This document shows, one piece after another, positions 47,372-53,518 of a stretch of 64,000 bases of DNA. Where the stretch lies: the NCBI RefSeq assembly GCF_946480305.1, contig NZ_CAMLJQ010000001.1, positions 186,001 through 250,000 of the forward strand. The letters are read 5' to 3'. The translations under genes were made by a program, and so were the position numbers. The notes below the pieces were generated by a model that was given only the letters and a program-made list of their open reading frames with translations, did not search any database and was not told the origin of the DNA. The stretch's first letter is position 1; each line of letters starts with the position of its first letter. The stretch comes from an uncultured Caldimonas sp. GTDB taxonomy: Bacteria; Pseudomonadota; Gammaproteobacteria; Burkholderiales; Burkholderiaceae.

Positions 47372-47440
47372 GAGCAACGCCTTGCCAGTCCGACTGCAGC
47401 CCCCGCGATAGTTGACAGCTCGTGTCTTCCCGCACCTGGC

Positions 47441-47469
47441 TTGTTCAAGCCGGTTGCGGCAACTATGGT
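47441..47469 (+). promoter_or_regulatory. Promoter candidate for the small-protein/radical SAM unit
   Basis: TTGTTC and TATGGT are 17 bases apart, the usual spacing for a housekeeping promoter. The spacer contains the perfect palindrome GTTGC-G-GCAAC (47453-47463), which may be an operator. The ATG of the small gene follows 26 bases after the -10 region, with AGGAGG before it. Confidence 0.4.
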
Positions 47470-47495
47470 CGTTCTTACATGCTCAGGAGGACACC

Positions 47496-47906
47496 ATGGA
47501 CACCCAGGACTTGCGGCCGGGCGACCCGGTCAACCCGTGTCACGACGATCCCACGTTGCGGGTGCGCGCTGCCGGCAGCGGCGGCGCTCCGGCGGATCTG
47601 GTGCGGTCCACCGGCTACACCAGCCGCGGCTACGTGCAGCACTTCCTGCCCGACCGGGAGGTGAACCTCGCGCAATTGAACAAGGCCCTGGCCGACGTGT
47701 TCGGGGAACCGGCGCTGCGCATGCTCGACATGAAGCTGACCATCGACCCCGAGTACTGGATGCAGCTGTGCGGCAATCCCTGGAGCGGCAACGTGTACCA
47801 GTACCGGTTCTTCGCGCCCAGGCAGAACGAACTGGACGAGGTGGCGCGGCTGAGCGCGGAAGTGCAGCGCCTGTCCGCCGAGGTGCAGGCCTTGAGGCAG
47901 GGCTGA
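47496..47906 (+). CDS. Unrecognised small protein coupled to radical SAM enzyme (136 aa)
   Basis: I do not recognise a family. The start is fixed by a near-perfect AGGAGG five bases before the ATG. The N-terminal part is polar with a Gly/Ser stretch (AAGSGGAPADL). The middle is aromatic-rich (STGYTSRGYVQHF, then PEYWMQLCGNPWSGNVYQYRFF) and has two Cys. The end is a short coiled-coil (LSAEVQRLSAEVQALRQ). No signal peptide or membrane segment is present. The stop is directly followed by the GTG of the radical SAM/SPASM gene, so the two are translated together; it is the best candidate for a substrate or partner of that enzyme. Confidence 0.7.
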   Translation: MDTQDLRPGDPVNPCHDDPTLRVRAAGSGGAPADLVRSTGYTSRGYVQHFLPDREVNLAQLNKALADVFGEPALRMLDMKLTIDPEYWMQLCGNPWSGNVYQYRFFAPRQNELDEVARLSAEVQRLSAEVQALRQG

Positions 47907-49154
47907 GTGCTTGGCGAGCCTGTCATGCAGTTCGTCAACATCGTCAAGCCCACGCACATCTGCAACCTCGACTGCACGTACTGCTACAACGACGATGTGC
48001 GCGACCCGGTGATGCGTGCCGGGACGCTGCACCGCACGATCGAGCAGACCTTTGCCTATGTGCGCGCCACCCCCTCGATGCGCGGGGCCGAGTTCATCTG
48101 GCACGGAGGCGAGCCCACCGTGGCGGGCCTGCCGTTCTTCGAGCAGGTGGTGGCACTGCAGCGCGAACTGGCCGATGGCATCGGCTGGCAGAACTCGCTG
48201 CAGACCAACGGCGTGCTGCTCGACGACCGGTGGATCGACTTCCTCGTGCGCGAGCAGTTCTCGTTGAGCATCTCGCTCGACGGACCGGCCCACATCAACG
48301 ACCGCTACCGCGTGACGCACCGGGGGGACGGCAGCTTCGAGCGGGTGTTCAGGGCCGTAGAGCGCGCCCGGGAGGCGGGCCTGCCGTTCGGCGTGTGCAT
48401 GGTGCTGAGCGAAGCCACCGCGCCGCACGTGGACGAGATCTACGACTTCTTCTCCAGTCACGGCCTGCCGTTCAATGTAATTCCGATGACCCGTTCGGGC
48501 GCCGCTCGCGACCGCTTCGACGACATCGGCCTCGACGCCGACGGCTACGCCCGCGCCTGGACGCGCATGTACGACCGCTGGCTCGACTCGGGCGACGAGG
48601 GCGGTTACGTCTATGTGCAGGACTTCGCACTGAAGACCCGCGCGATTGCCTCGGGCAAGGCGGCCGATTGCATCGGGCTGTCCAACTGCTCGCACTTCAA
48701 CGTCTCGACCGATCCGGTGGGTGACGTCTACCCCTGCGCGTCGCTGTCGGGCAACTCGGCCATGTGCTACGGCAACCTCACCACGCACAGCCTGGCGGAG
48801 TTGCTCGACACGCCGCTGGCGCGCTCGCTCAAGCACCGCACGGTCGATCCGCAGTGCGCACAGTGCAAGTGGCAGCATGTGTGCCACGGCGGTTGCGCCG
48901 CCCGCGCGTACAAGTTCCATGGCGATCCGCACCAGCGGGACCGCTACTGCCCGGGGCTGTTCCAGATCTACGAGCACATCGAGCGGCGGCTGCGCGAGCG
49001 AGGCCTGCCGACCGGGCTGCGGCACCCGCTGCACATGTCGGACGGGATAGACGCCGTAACCTACGATGCGCTCGCGGGCCCCATGCCGGCGTCCGGGAGC
49101 ACGCCTCACCGCGTCATCCCGGTGCGCACGCTGGCCGCGACCGACGGGCGCTGA
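47907..49154 (+). CDS. Radical SAM/SPASM peptide-modifying-type enzyme
   Basis: The 415-residue enzyme has the radical SAM core with CNLDCTYCYND (C19, C23, C26, CX3CX2C), EFIWHGGEPTV, LQTNGVLLDD and LSISLDGPAHINDRYR. The C-terminal SPASM domain is Cys-rich (VYPCASL, SAMCYG, PQCAQCKWQHVCHGGCAAR, RYCPG) and can bind auxiliary Fe-S clusters. This class matures ribosomal peptides and sulfatases. The GTG at 47907 follows directly on the stop of the small protein gene, with AGGCAGGG upstream; an ATG at 47925 is the alternative. No known RiPP precursor motif or exporter is nearby, so the target is undefined. Confidence 0.9.
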   Translation: MLGEPVMQFVNIVKPTHICNLDCTYCYNDDVRDPVMRAGTLHRTIEQTFAYVRATPSMRGAEFIWHGGEPTVAGLPFFEQVVALQRELADGIGWQNSLQTNGVLLDDRWIDFLVREQFSLSISLDGPAHINDRYRVTHRGDGSFERVFRAVERAREAGLPFGVCMVLSEATAPHVDEIYDFFSSHGLPFNVIPMTRSGAARDRFDDIGLDADGYARAWTRMYDRWLDSGDEGGYVYVQDFALKTRAIASGKAADCIGLSNCSHFNVSTDPVGDVYPCASLSGNSAMCYGNLTTHSLAELLDTPLARSLKHRTVDPQCAQCKWQHVCHGGCAARAYKFHGDPHQRDRYCPGLFQIYEHIERRLRERGLPTGLRHPLHMSDGIDAVTYDALAGPMPASGSTPHRVIPVRTLAATDGR

Positions 49155-49205: not shown

Positions 49206-49277
49206 ACGGTGCCTCCCACGCTCCGTGGCTCGCACAGCGGTGCCTGCGACCCCCTTGCTTCTTTTCGTCCATTGCTG

Positions 49278-49775
49278 ATGTCGCCTTCGTCTGATCAAAG
49301 CCCGTCCAATCCCGCCATCTCCGTCAAGCTGCTCGGCCTGCCCCACCTCGCAGAGATGCGTGGCCTGCTTGCCATGTTCGGCCAGGCCTTCGAGGACGTA
49401 CCCACGTACACCTCGCACCAGCCTGACGATGGATACCTCAAAACGCTGTTGACGAGCGATACCTTCGTCGCGCTGGCAGCGCTGGAGGGCGACGCGGTGG
49501 TGGGCGGGCTGGCCGCCTACGTGCTGCCGAAGTTCGAGCAGGCGCGTTCGGAGATGTACATCTACGACCTGGCCGTCGCCGAGACGCACCGCCGCCAAGG
49601 CATTGCCACAGCCTTGATCGAGGCGTTGAAGCGGATCGCGGCTGCGAGAAACGTCTACGTGATCTTCGTGCAGGCCGACCACGGAGACGATCCGGCGATC
49701 GCTCTCTACACCAAGCTCGGCGTGCGGGAAGACGTGCTGCATTTCGATATCGACCCGGCAAACGCGCATCGATGA
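49278..49775 (+). CDS. GNAT acetyltransferase related to AAC(3)-I
   Basis: This 165-residue GNAT protein closely follows the sequence of aminoglycoside 3-N-acetyltransferase type I (AAC(3)-I) from memory: [70 protein letters not shown], and [24 protein letters not shown]. The CoA-binding loop RRQGIATA is intact. Family knowledge suggests acetyl-CoA-dependent acetylation of gentamicin-type aminoglycosides; whether this chromosomal relative does so, or has another amine substrate, is not shown. No integron integrase is in the window. The start at 49278 is the first in-frame ATG near the conserved region. Confidence 0.85.
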
Positions 49776-49799: not shown

Positions 49800-51221
49800 T
49801 CACGCGGCGAGCTGCCGCAAGTCGTCGAGCCATTGCGCATAAGCGGCCTCACGCTCTGACCCGGGCAAGCGCAGCAGCGCGGCCGGATGCCACGTCACGA
49901 GCACGGGCGTGCCGTCGGCCCGCGGCAGCCACTGGCCACGGTATTCGGCAATGGACACGCGCCGGCCGAGCAACGCCGCCGCCGCCGTGGCTCCCAGCGC
50001 CACCACGCGCGCGGGCGCCACGCTGCGCAGTTCGTGTTCGAGCCATTGCGCACAGGCCTGCACCTCCTGCTGGCCGGGCGTTTTGTGCAGCCGCCGTTTG
50101 CCTCGCCATTCGAACCGGAAGTGTTTCACCGCGTTGGTGAGATAGAACTGCTCTCGCGCGAGGCCGAGTTCTGCGAGCGCCCGGTCGAGCAACTGCCCCG
50201 CGGGGCCGACGAAGGGGCGGCCTTGCAAGTCTTCGACGTCGCCGGGTTGCTCGCCGACGAGCATGGTCGGCGCGTGGGCAGGGCCTTCGCCCCAAACGGT
50301 CTGCGTGGCATGTCGTGCATGAGGGCAGGCAAGGCAGCCCGAAGCAGCCGCTTTCGCCTCGTCGGTCGTGGCCGCCGCCGGCACCTGCCACGCCGGCAGC
50401 TTGCGCAGCGGCACACTGGGCGGCTGCTCGACCATCGCCTCAGCACGAGCCGCCGCGGCAGCAGCCAGCGGCGCGATCAGGCGCGCTTCGGGCAGGTTGT
50501 GCCAGTACTTGCGGGGCATCTCGCTGCACATCGCATCGAGCTTGAGCCGCGCGGGGTTGAAGATGCTCTCGTAATAGGTCAGCCAGAGCTGCTCGTGGGC
50601 GTCGCCCTGGCGCACGATGTCGCCGCGCCGCGCACCGGGGCCGATGTGCAGTTCGCGCTGACGCCAATGCAGGCTGCGACGCGGCGTGAAGATCGACCAC
50701 TGCATGCCGGCGAAGCGGCGGGCGAAGAAGGGTGCCACTTCCTCTTCGATGTAGTGCTCGGGCTCGAACCAGGCCACGTAGTGCGAGCCGTGCGGTGAAG
50801 CGCGCTCGGTGAAGCGCACGAAGGCTTTCATCTTGTGCAGGTCGCGGCGCACGCTCTGGGCCAGGGCTCGCAGGCGCAGGCGGTCCGCGTCGAGCGGGTC
50901 ATGGCGCAGCTCGGGTGTTGCGATCAGGCGCGTGAGCAGACGGTAGGCCAGCGCAAAACGTTGCGGGTCGCTGTGCAGCAGCGCGTGCTGCGTCAGTTCG
51001 ATGAAGGCCGCAGGCACCCGTGGCGCTGGGGTCGCGGCCGGATCGGTGGTCGGCTGCGCGGCGGAGATCGACTCGAACAGCGCCGAGGTCGGATCGTCTT
51101 CGTCGGGCACCAGCCAGCTGACGTCCTGCGCGGCCACACGCTGCGCCAGCAAGCCGCGCGCGGCTCTGCGCCAGCCGCTCACGTCGGCGGGGTGCGCAAG
51201 CAGAACATGATGCGCCGCCAT
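49800..51221 (-). CDS. UdgX-type uracil-DNA glycosylase fused to a TIGR03915-type domain
   Basis: The 473-residue protein joins an N-terminal DUF4130/TIGR03915-like domain (about 1-250, LSWLVPDEDD, HKMKAFVRFTE, HYVAWFEPEHYIEEEVAPFFARRF) to a C-terminal UdgX glycosylase (about 290-470). The latter has VGEQPGDVEDLQGRPFVGPAGQLLD and the UdgX loop GKRRLHKTP with His379, the residue that in UdgX forms a covalent bond to uracil-containing DNA. TWHPAALLR closes the fold. The ATG lies ten bases after the stop of the radical SAM gene, so the pair forms an operon. The fused architecture is known, but its biological role is not settled. Confidence 0.9.
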   Translation of the reverse strand: MAAHHVLLAHPADVSGWRRAARGLLAQRVAAQDVSWLVPDEDDPTSALFESISAAQPTTDPAATPAPRVPAAFIELTQHALLHSDPQRFALAYRLLTRLIATPELRHDPLDADRLRLRALAQSVRRDLHKMKAFVRFTERASPHGSHYVAWFEPEHYIEEEVAPFFARRFAGMQWSIFTPRRSLHWRQRELHIGPGARRGDIVRQGDAHEQLWLTYYESIFNPARLKLDAMCSEMPRKYWHNLPEARLIAPLAAAAAARAEAMVEQPPSVPLRKLPAWQVPAAATTDEAKAAASGCLACPHARHATQTVWGEGPAHAPTMLVGEQPGDVEDLQGRPFVGPAGQLLDRALAELGLAREQFYLTNAVKHFRFEWRGKRRLHKTPGQQEVQACAQWLEHELRSVAPARVVALGATAAAALLGRRVSIAEYRGQWLPRADGTPVLVTWHPAALLRLPGSEREAAYAQWLDDLRQLAA

Positions 51222-51231
51222 GGCCGCGACG

Positions 51232-52488
51232 TCAGAACAGCGAAGCCTGTCGGGCGGCGGGGCGCAGGCTCGCGGCGAGGGCTGCGGCATCCGGCTCGCC
51301 GCGCGGACGGTGGTCGCTCAACTCGACGAAAGGCAGCACCTTGCGCACCGGCACGCGCAGGCGCTTGAGGTCGTCGGTGCGCAGGCGCCGCACCCGCCGG
51401 CTGGCGAGCAGCCGTTCGACCGCCTTGACGCCCAGGCCTGGCACGCGCAGCAACAGCTCGCGCGGGGCGCGGTTCAGATCGACCGGGAAGCGCTCGCGGT
51501 GGCGCAGCGCCCATGCCAGCTTGGGATCGATGTCGAGATCGAGCATGCCGTCAGGTGCCCCGGCGATCTCGGTGGCATCGAACCCGTAGAAGCGCATCAG
51601 CCAGTCGGCCTGGTAGAGCCGGTGTTCGCGCTCCAGCGGCGGTGCCTGCAGCGGCAGCGCGCGCGAGGCATCGGGAATGGGACTGAACGCCGAGTAGTAC
51701 ACGCGCCCGAGCCGGTAAGAGGCGTACATGGCGCCGCTGGTCTCGAGGATGGTGCGGTCGTCGGCTTCATCGGCCCCCACGATGATCTGGGTGCTCTGGC
51801 TGCGGGCGAAAGCGGGAGCAACCGCGGGGGCAGGGGGCAGGCCAGCCCCGGCCCGTGGGGCGGCAGGGCGCTGCTGCTCGCGGGCGTCGTCGATCAGCAG
51901 CTTCAGCCGAGCCATCGAGCGGCGGATGCCGGTCGCGTTTTTCTCGGGCGCGAGGGTGGCCAGCGCCTGCGGCGTGGGCAGTTCGAGGTTGATGCTGAGC
52001 CGGTCGGCATGACGACCGGCTCGCGCCAGCAGCTCCGGACTAGCGTCTGGAATGGTCTTCAGATGGATGTAGCCCCGAAAGTCGTGCTCCTCGCGCAGCA
52101 CCCGCGCCACCTCGACCAATTGCTCCATCGTGTAGTCGGCGCTGCGGATGATGCCGGAGCTGAGGAACAGGCCTTCGATGTAGTTGCGGCGGTAGAAGTC
52201 GAGCGTGAGCTGCACCACCTCGTCGACGGAGAAACGCGCGCGCGGCACGTTGCTGCTGACACGGTTGACGCAATACAGGCAGTCGTAGAGGCAGAAGTTC
52301 GTCAGCAGCACCTTGAGCAGCGAGATGCAGCGGCCATCGGGTGCATAGCTGTGGCAGATGCCCATGCCTTCCGTCGAGCCGATGCCGGTACCGGAAAGCG
52401 AGTCGCGGGGCGCGGCGTTGCTGGATGCACAAGAGGCGTCGTACTTGGCGGCGTCGGCCAGGATGGCGAGCTTTTGGCGGAGATCCAT
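51232..52488 (-). CDS. DNA modification/repair-type radical SAM protein (TIGR03916-like)
   Basis: The 418-residue protein has a radical SAM core with NFCLYDCLYC (C66, C70, C73, CX3CX2C). Earlier conserved Cys lie at about 20 and 45, YAPDGRCISLLKVLLTN leads into the motif, and FLSSGIIRSADYTMEQLVEVARVLR follows. The C-terminal region has a helix-hairpin-helix (LLLRVPGLGVKAVERLLASRR), which binds DNA. These are features of the TIGR03916 'putative DNA modification/repair' family that travels with UDG-fused partners. It is preceded by a LexA-type box. The ATG at 52488 has no strong ribosome site; the frame is open to 52656. Confidence 0.88.
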   Translation of the reverse strand: MDLRQKLAILADAAKYDASCASSNAAPRDSLSGTGIGSTEGMGICHSYAPDGRCISLLKVLLTNFCLYDCLYCVNRVSSNVPRARFSVDEVVQLTLDFYRRNYIEGLFLSSGIIRSADYTMEQLVEVARVLREEHDFRGYIHLKTIPDASPELLARAGRHADRLSINLELPTPQALATLAPEKNATGIRRSMARLKLLIDDAREQQRPAAPRAGAGLPPAPAVAPAFARSQSTQIIVGADEADDRTILETSGAMYASYRLGRVYYSAFSPIPDASRALPLQAPPLEREHRLYQADWLMRFYGFDATEIAGAPDGMLDLDIDPKLAWALRHRERFPVDLNRAPRELLLRVPGLGVKAVERLLASRRVRRLRTDDLKRLRVPVRKVLPFVELSDHRPRGEPDAAALAASLRPAARQASLF

Positions 52489-52558
52489 GGTGTGCTTGGG
52501 CAGGCGGGGTGGCAGCACGATGGAAAGCCGGGTCGCCATGTACTGCGTGATGAAAATA

Positions 52559-52574
52559 CTGGATGAATATACAG
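52559..52574 (-). promoter_or_regulatory. LexA (SOS) box candidate
   Basis: CTGGATGAATATACAG has CTG and CAG separated by ten bases, and matches seven of eight specific positions of CTGT-N8-ACAG. It lies 70 bases upstream of the radical SAM start and 164 bases upstream of the divergent exonuclease III gene. LexA repression of the radical SAM-UdgX pair is the likely meaning. Confidence 0.65.
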
Positions 52575-52738: not shown

Positions 52739-53518
52739 ATGAAGATCGCAACCTTCAACGTCAACGGCATCAACGGGCGGCTGCCTCGGCTGCTGGAATG
52801 GCTGCAGGCGTCGCAGCCCGATGTCGCCTGCCTGCAGGAACTCAAGGCGGCGGACGACAACTTCCCCGTCGAGGCCGTCCGCGCAGCAGGCTACGGCGCG
52901 ATCTGGCTGGGCCAGAAAGGCTTCAATGGGGTCGCGATCCTGTCGCGCGGCGTGCAACCGGTGGAAGTGCGCCGAGGGTTGCCCGGTGATGCGTCGGACA
53001 CGCAAAGCCGCTACCTGGAAGCTGCTGTCAACGGCGTCGTCGTGGGCTGCCTTTACCTGCCCAACGGCAACCCGCAACCGGGCCCGAAGTTCGACTACAA
53101 GCTCGCCTGGTTCGAACGCCTGATCCAGCATGCACTGACGCTGCGTGACTGCGGCGCCCCGGCCGTACTCGCAGGCGACTACAACGTGGTGCCGACCGAT
53201 GAGGCGCGCGACATCTACTCGACCCGATCGTGGAAGAAGGACGCGCTGTTGCAGCCAGAACCACGCGCGGCCTTCCGCCGCCTGCTCGCCCAGGGCTGGA
53301 CGGACGCGCTGCGCCACCTGCACCCGGATGCGCCGCTCTACACGTTCTGGGACTACTTCCGCAACCGCTGGGAGCGCAACGCCGGGCTGCGCATAGACCA
53401 CCTGCTGCTCAACCCTCTGGCGGCCGAGCGATTGAAGGAAGCCGGCGTCGACCGCGAGCAGCGGGGCAAGGAGAAAGCGAGCGACCATGCTCCGGCCTGG
53501 GTGCGCCTCGAGCATTGA
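52739..53518 (+). CDS. xth: Exodeoxyribonuclease III (AP endonuclease)
   Basis: The 259-residue enzyme cleaves abasic-site DNA and removes 3' blocks. It shows MKIATFNVNGINGRLPRLLEWL, CLQELKA (metal-binding Glu), LVLAGDYNVVPTD-type loop (APAVLAGDYNVVP), TFWDYFRNRWERNAGLRIDHLLL and the catalytic SDHAPAW at the C-terminus. The start is fixed by MKIATFNVNG. The divergent radical SAM-UdgX operon lies 250 bases away, so abasic sites made by UdgX-type glycosylase would be substrates. A TATAAC box lies near 52680. Confidence 0.95.
   Translation: MKIATFNVNGINGRLPRLLEWLQASQPDVACLQELKAADDNFPVEAVRAAGYGAIWLGQKGFNGVAILSRGVQPVEVRRGLPGDASDTQSRYLEAAVNGVVVGCLYLPNGNPQPGPKFDYKLAWFERLIQHALTLRDCGAPAVLAGDYNVVPTDEARDIYSTRSWKKDALLQPEPRAAFRRLLAQGWTDALRHLHPDAPLYTFWDYFRNRWERNAGLRIDHLLLNPLAAERLKEAGVDREQRGKEKASDHAPAWVRLEH

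Follow-up and report, generated by a model that had tools for sequence, protein, structure and literature searches.

The operon and its predicted operator

What is the task of an operon that joins a radical SAM gene to a uracil-DNA-glycosylase-type fusion gene behind an SOS-type box, and does LexA control it? The operon lies in a 64-kb stretch of DNA, very probably betaproteobacterial, referred to here as the window, and all coordinates are those of the window (Table 1). An earlier note on this DNA had described a LexA box, a TIGR03916-like radical SAM protein with a helix-hairpin-helix, a UdgX-type glycosylase fused to a TIGR03915-like domain and a divergent exonuclease III, and had called the function of the operon unsettled.

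Table 1. Features of the operon and its surroundings, in window coordinates
Feature	Position	Strand	Basis
LexA-type operator (predicted)	52559..52574	.	CTGTATATTCATCCAG on the gene's strand, 70 bases ahead of the ATG at 52488
TIGR03916 radical SAM protein, 418 aa	51232..52488	-	527.2 bits, cut-off 343.5; orthologue alignment
Possible N-terminal extension, 17 aa (start at 52539)	52489..52539	-	database protein P0001 has 435 aa
CX3CX2C cluster motif (C66, C70, C73)	52270..52293	-	invariant in 37 of 37 aligned sequences
Helix-hairpin-helix-like segment, about residues 343-367	51388..51462	-	sequence; weak profile match to ComEA/RuvA chains
TIGR03915(DUF4130)-UdgX fusion protein, 473 aa	49800..51221	-	starts ten bases past the radical SAM stop
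TIGR03915/DUF4130 region	50484..51191	-	202.6 bits, cut-off 112.25; PF13566
UdgX domain (TIGR03914), optional in relatives	49812..50480	-	274.6 bits, cut-off 189.95
KRRLH loop	50085..50099	-	sequence
Exonuclease III, divergent neighbour	52739..53518	+	TIGR00195 238.3 bits, cut-off 182.55

The predicted operator reads CTGGATGAATATACAG on the forward strand. No other 16-mer of the window differs from CTGTATATATATACAG at three positions or fewer, and at that distance 0.00 matches are expected from 100 dinucleotide-preserving shuffles of the window. The bare form CTG-N10-CAG is not rare (21 in the window, 29.9 expected), and it is therefore the A+T-rich centre that makes this site special. According to the accessible part of PMC6595937, the betaproteobacterial SOS box is CTGT-N8-ACAG. 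The box in the window resembles it in sequence and in its position before a gene that is likely to act on DNA, and differs from it in one of the eight core letters (CTGT...CCAG). Variants with CCAG also occur ahead of orthologues and ahead of lexA in relatives. No sigma-70-type promoter was found close to the box. The proposal of a LexA box in front of the radical SAM gene is upheld by this match, which is beyond chance in the window.

The radical SAM protein is well above the TIGR03916 cut-off, and the family bears the NCBI name 'putative DNA modification/repair'. The nearest named relatives of the protein, at 86% in Eleftheria terrae and 85% in Caldimonas brevitalea, make a betaproteobacterial origin of the window very probable. 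The N-terminal extension that would begin at 52539 is absent in the aligned orthologues, and the alignment favours the start at 52488. Besides the cysteines of the cluster motif, C20, C45 and C54 are likewise invariant in the 37 aligned sequences. The family assignment of the earlier note stands; its helix-hairpin-helix can be seen in the sequence, with weak profile matches to ComEA and RuvA chains (E 0.03-0.12). Membership of the SplB/spore photoproduct lyase group found no support in the sequence, with no match to TIGR04070 and TIGR03916 as the only NCBIfam match at E up to 0.001. This differs from the 'SplB-like radical SAM' in the accessible text of PMC3765255. Among the matches listed, the structures nearest to a model of the protein were viperin, MiaB, lipoyl synthase, HydG and HydE. 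These are generic radical SAM structures and the model is poor at residues 17-50; as far as the model goes, they do not settle the substrate.

The second gene was described correctly in the earlier note, with the TIGR03915 and TIGR03914 models both matched over their cut-offs. The UdgX part has the motifs GEQPGD, KRRLH and HPAALLR. In characterised UdgX the histidine of the KRRLH loop cross-links to DNA (PMC10359453, accessible part). Compared with UdgX of Mycobacterium smegmatis (PDB 6ajo and others), the UdgX of the window is fused behind DUF4130, has HPAALLR as motif B, and is encoded in an operon with a LexA-type box. When the fold of DUF4130 was sought, the structure matches listed were filled by UDG.

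Operators ahead of orthologous operons

The first set of orthologous loci comprised the best 80 of 484 confirmed genome-contig loci and six plasmid loci, and was scanned for motifs between -150 and +60 relative to the start of the radical SAM gene. Loci L007 (36% identity), L008 (a contig deposited as phage) and L023 (too little upstream DNA) were kept outside the motif counts. The betaproteobacterial criterion was CTG-N10-CAG with at most five mismatches to the consensus, a threshold that was fixed after the first set had been viewed. Such a box was found in 22 of 23 betaproteobacterial loci, the window included, in none of the shuffles and in 2 of 1809 other windows. The motif GTTC-N7-GTTC was found in 42 of 46 alphaproteobacterial loci, in 0.4% of the shuffles and in 15 of 3435 other windows; many of these loci are from Bradyrhizobium or Brevundimonas, and the alphaproteobacterial rows are therefore not independent. 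In the accessible text of PMC8565304, GTTC-N7-GTTC is the alphaproteobacterial LexA motif. Within the first set the betaproteobacterial motif was not found in the alphaproteobacterial loci, nor the alphaproteobacterial motif in the betaproteobacterial loci.

Two of four loci from other gammaproteobacteria have a betaproteobacterial-type box. The loci of the first set without a motif match number 4 of 46 in the alphaproteobacteria, 1 of 23 in the betaproteobacteria, 2 of 4 in the other gammaproteobacteria and 2 of 10 in the Xanthomonadales. None of the three motifs tried was found in the single Verrucomicrobia locus or the single Eubacterium locus. The single Bacteroides locus gave one betaproteobacterial-type match at +18, which we take for chance because it is inside the coding region. 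It should be noted that the betaproteobacterial criterion is accordingly not free of false matches.

In Burkholderiales loci L011, L012, L015, L016, L018, L020, L025, L032, L039 and L076 the box is at -15 and its last base is the G of what looks like a GTG start codon of the radical SAM gene, so that a bound repressor would cover the start itself.

Because the betaproteobacterial threshold had been set on loci already seen, it was applied unchanged to new draws. One bacterial family was sampled with 200 genomes, and 38 of them have the gene. Beside this draw, Caulobacter vibrioides, which we take to be the same species as Caulobacter crescentus, was one of three control genomes with a match to the gene. 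Thirty held-out loci were read, and 23 remained after seven repeats were set aside; L136, which is among the 23, shares 91% identity across 300 bases with a locus of the first set. The earlier note had named the lack of a conserved box ahead of orthologous operons as an outcome that would speak against it. A box was found in 21 of the 23 held-out loci, which belong to one betaproteobacterial family, and in 0 of 798 control windows. Further loci from the same 200-genome draw had the box in seven of eight cases, and a second draw yielded 12 loci, of which eight were new and all eight had the box. Misses among the further betaproteobacterial loci amount to 3 of 39.

The lexA promoters of related genomes have the same types of box, in 9 of 9 betaproteobacterial and 5 of 5 alphaproteobacterial cases, with up to six mismatches allowed (three to five in the best) and in a count made without control windows. 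In the Burkholderiales and Alphaproteobacteria, the clade's own type of operator has been retained ahead of most of the orthologous operons that were read. The damage control suggested in the earlier note gains support from operators that are kept ahead of orthologues and are of the type found ahead of lexA in related genomes. On these sequence comparisons, LexA very probably controls the operon.

Gram-positive-type boxes were sought with a weak test, in which 36 of 393 control windows match. A CGAAC-N4-GTTCG-like match (at most two mismatches, -200 to +40) was found in five of six Eubacterium or gut-contig copies, and in L006, L008 and L246 such boxes are paired near the start. The same test found none in Bacteroides L005 and L244, Acinetobacter L249 or Gemmatirosa L007.

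The Xanthomonadales operons carry a different palindrome. GTCTCA-N5-TGAGAC, with at most one mismatch, was found in 8 of 10, always at -39, and in 0 of 799 other windows. Exact sites occur in 41 of the 60 genomes scanned from the family of G001, and a reversed control occurs in none. The neighbours of 50 exact sites (30 + 20) were read. Fifteen of the sites are by a gene for a TIGR03817-like helicase, assigned at 73-90% identity to a partial protein that scores 490 bits (cut-off 874.1). Seven sites precede mraZ, six precede the radical SAM operon, two precede dnaB, and one is 44 bases ahead of recA (Pfam RecA 455.9 bits). Three are near other helicases (26-28%). Another three lie close to rmuC or within it, of which one was assigned by Pfam and a second at 25% identity, and the third falls within the coding sequence. 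The remaining 13 are without an assigned gene. Elsewhere the palindrome precedes a PA0069-type radical SAM gene and, in three Stenotrophomonas genomes, uvrA. A form with one mismatch is found ahead of rmuC in Pseudoxanthomonas and of a TIGR00498 LexA gene in Rhodanobacter.

The lexA1-type and lexA2-type promoters carry boxes of their own, TTAGTAGTAATACTACTAA and TGTACAAATGTACA or near forms. The palindrome, at one mismatch or fewer, was not found at these promoters save at the TIGR00498 gene of Rhodanobacter. The loci with palindrome sites are L089-L095, L099, L102, L107-L119, L195-L224 and L250-L269. In L260, at about position 1501, a site is less than 100 bases ahead of a gene that resembles Cas9 by eye; this may be chance.

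Partners of the radical SAM protein and the proposed role

In tblastn searches, 83 of 86 loci show DUF4130 behind the radical SAM gene. For the other three, Pfam shows DUF4130 adjoining the radical SAM gene in two (L005 and L006), and in the third the contig stops 262 bases past the radical SAM gene. UdgX is present in 70 of the 83 operons and was not found in 13. Among the 70, GEQPGD is present in 69. A loop pattern in which the histidine is obligatory is matched by 68, of which 33 read KRR[ILM]H. In the loci read it is DUF4130, and not UdgX, that constantly accompanies the radical SAM protein. Copies are also present in contigs deposited as phage; one of these, a gut contig (L008:3983-8475), carries a DinG/XPD-type helicase gene downstream of the radical SAM and DUF4130 genes. 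No Clostridia-type copies were confirmed in two scans of viral contigs.

We take COG4277 to be the TIGR03916 group. A two-gene COG1573-COG4277 operon belongs to SOS/LexA-type networks of Bacteroidetes in the work of Erill and co-workers, the accessible text of which also cites an SOS-controlled system based on uracil-DNA glycosylase in Verrucomicrobia and Alphaproteobacteria (PMC8565304). The operon in the window resembles the one described there in encoding a uracil-DNA glycosylase-family protein and COG4277, probably under LexA-type control. It differs in being betaproteobacterial with a CTGT-N8-ACAG-type box, and the constant partner in the loci that we read is DUF4130, not UDG. According to the accessible part of a 2013 paper in Biol Direct (PMC3765255), DUF4130 is linked to radical SAM proteins and uracil DNA glycosylases and is predicted to be a mutagenesis-related enzyme. 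The accessible text of PMC6595937 mentions, as data not shown, that radical SAM and DNA modification/repair genes of Acidovorax citrulli are preceded by SOS boxes. Since the SOS control of the COG1573-COG4277 operon and the Acidovorax citrulli boxes are already published, the regulatory part of this work is an extension and not a discovery. The earlier note was fair in calling the function unsettled, but SOS control of such an operon was already in print, as the accessible text of PMC8565304 shows. The dispensability of UdgX and the extent of the betaproteobacterial conservation were not met with in the accessible parts of PMC8565304, PMC3765255 and PMC6595937.

Based on these observations, we suggest that the operon most likely encodes a LexA-repressed, damage-induced DNA-repair pair made up of the radical SAM protein and DUF4130, and that UdgX serves as a trap that the pair can do without. 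LexA would cover the promoter until RecA-driven cleavage frees it, and the radical SAM protein and its DUF4130 partner would then be made together. DNA repair or lesion processing is the probable job of the pair. The helix-hairpin-helix end of the radical SAM protein may hold the DNA, while radical chemistry at the radical SAM centre would be directed at a damaged nucleotide, the same lesion that DUF4130 would recognise or process. Where UdgX is fused to DUF4130, it could add a uracil-capturing step, and the abasic site that results would be shielded by the covalent capture. For mycobacterial UdgX, the capture of uracil sites by a covalent bond is on record in the accessible part of PMC10359453. 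That the pair reverses a lesion directly by chemistry, rather than supporting excision or modifying bases, is possible, but we lean against it.

A radical SAM family that NCBI names only 'putative DNA modification/repair' is hereby tied to the SOS response by conserved operators. With the partner narrowed to DUF4130, the question of the substrate can be tested by comparing UdgX-less and UdgX-bearing operons for lesion specificity.

We speculate further, in a reading that is rather doubtful as a whole, that the radical SAM protein and DUF4130 form an undescribed direct-reversal or lesion-processing enzyme, whose place in the damage response is so central that SOS control of it has been rebuilt on the operator of each clade. 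UdgX would be a later add-on that traps uracil-type intermediates. In the Xanthomonadaceae, GTCTCA-N5-TGAGAC would mark a further damage regulon under a regulator other than LexA1 or LexA2, which would include the TIGR03817-like helicase. In individual genomes or genera the regulon would extend to uvrA, recA, rmuC and the PA0069-type radical SAM gene.

The operon could also be a uracil-centred base-excision module, in which UdgX is the working part and is served by the radical SAM protein and DUF4130, which might for example release or process the UdgX-DNA cross-link. The presence of UdgX in most operons is in line with this; the accessible text of PMC8565304 reads the operon as uracil-DNA-glycosylase-based repair, and that of PMC10359453 proposes RecA-dependent pathways or proteases for resolving UdgX-DNA complexes. 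We nevertheless consider it unlikely in view of the 13 operons without UdgX. Eleven of their 13 genomes have no TIGR03914 match over the cut-off, the best match being below 34 bits in eight and 135-152 bits in three, although some of these genomes are incomplete. Paucibacter is an example of a genome without UdgX. Furthermore, the box is found in 9 of 10 UdgX-less betaproteobacterial operons, as in 12 of 12 others (the window uncounted), and no UDG domain is encoded by the DUF4130 gene that adjoins the radical SAM gene in Bacteroides L005, in Eubacterium L006 and in the gut contig L008. The same evidence disfavours UdgX as the core of the operon, and the earlier note's use of it as an essential element was not borne out.

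An improbable alternative is a writer of DNA base modifications, used for self-marking or defence, that is under SOS control only incidentally. It would suit the NCBI family name and the copies in contigs deposited as phage. SOS-type operators are, however, kept across distant clades with different motifs, and for this reason repair fits better than constitutive marking.

Neighbouring genes

The earlier note was right that a gene for exonuclease III diverges from the operon on the other side of the box, with a TIGR00195 match over the cut-off. Its further suggestion, that exonuclease III is a working part of the module, failed when relatives were read. The two genes are divergent with the box in between, as would suit one co-regulated module that shares the box, but exonuclease III adjoins the operon in none of the three sets read, of 88, 30 and 20 loci. 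In the set of 88, four loci have less than 500 bp upstream, and the closest relatives, Eleftheria and Caldimonas, were not recognised in the sets. We therefore regard a shared module as very improbable and rejected it for the relatives read; judged by gene order, exonuclease III is an ordinary neighbour of the repair pair. Finally, that the box is a functionless chance match is scarcely credible, since none is expected at three mismatches in the shuffles and the box is conserved in held-out orthologues, frequent as CTG-N10-CAG alone may be.

Two genes beyond the 3' end of the operon should also be mentioned. A radical SAM/SPASM gene at 47412-49154 scores 579 bits against the NCBIfam model of the dynobactin maturase, which has a cut-off of 450. 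It is preceded by an ORF containing NPWSGNVYQYRFF, which to our eye resembles a dynobactin core. Between the radical SAM/SPASM gene and the operon, at 49209-49775, is an acetyltransferase gene over the cut-off for AAC(3)-I aminoglycoside N-acetyltransferase (227.4 bits, cut-off 200).
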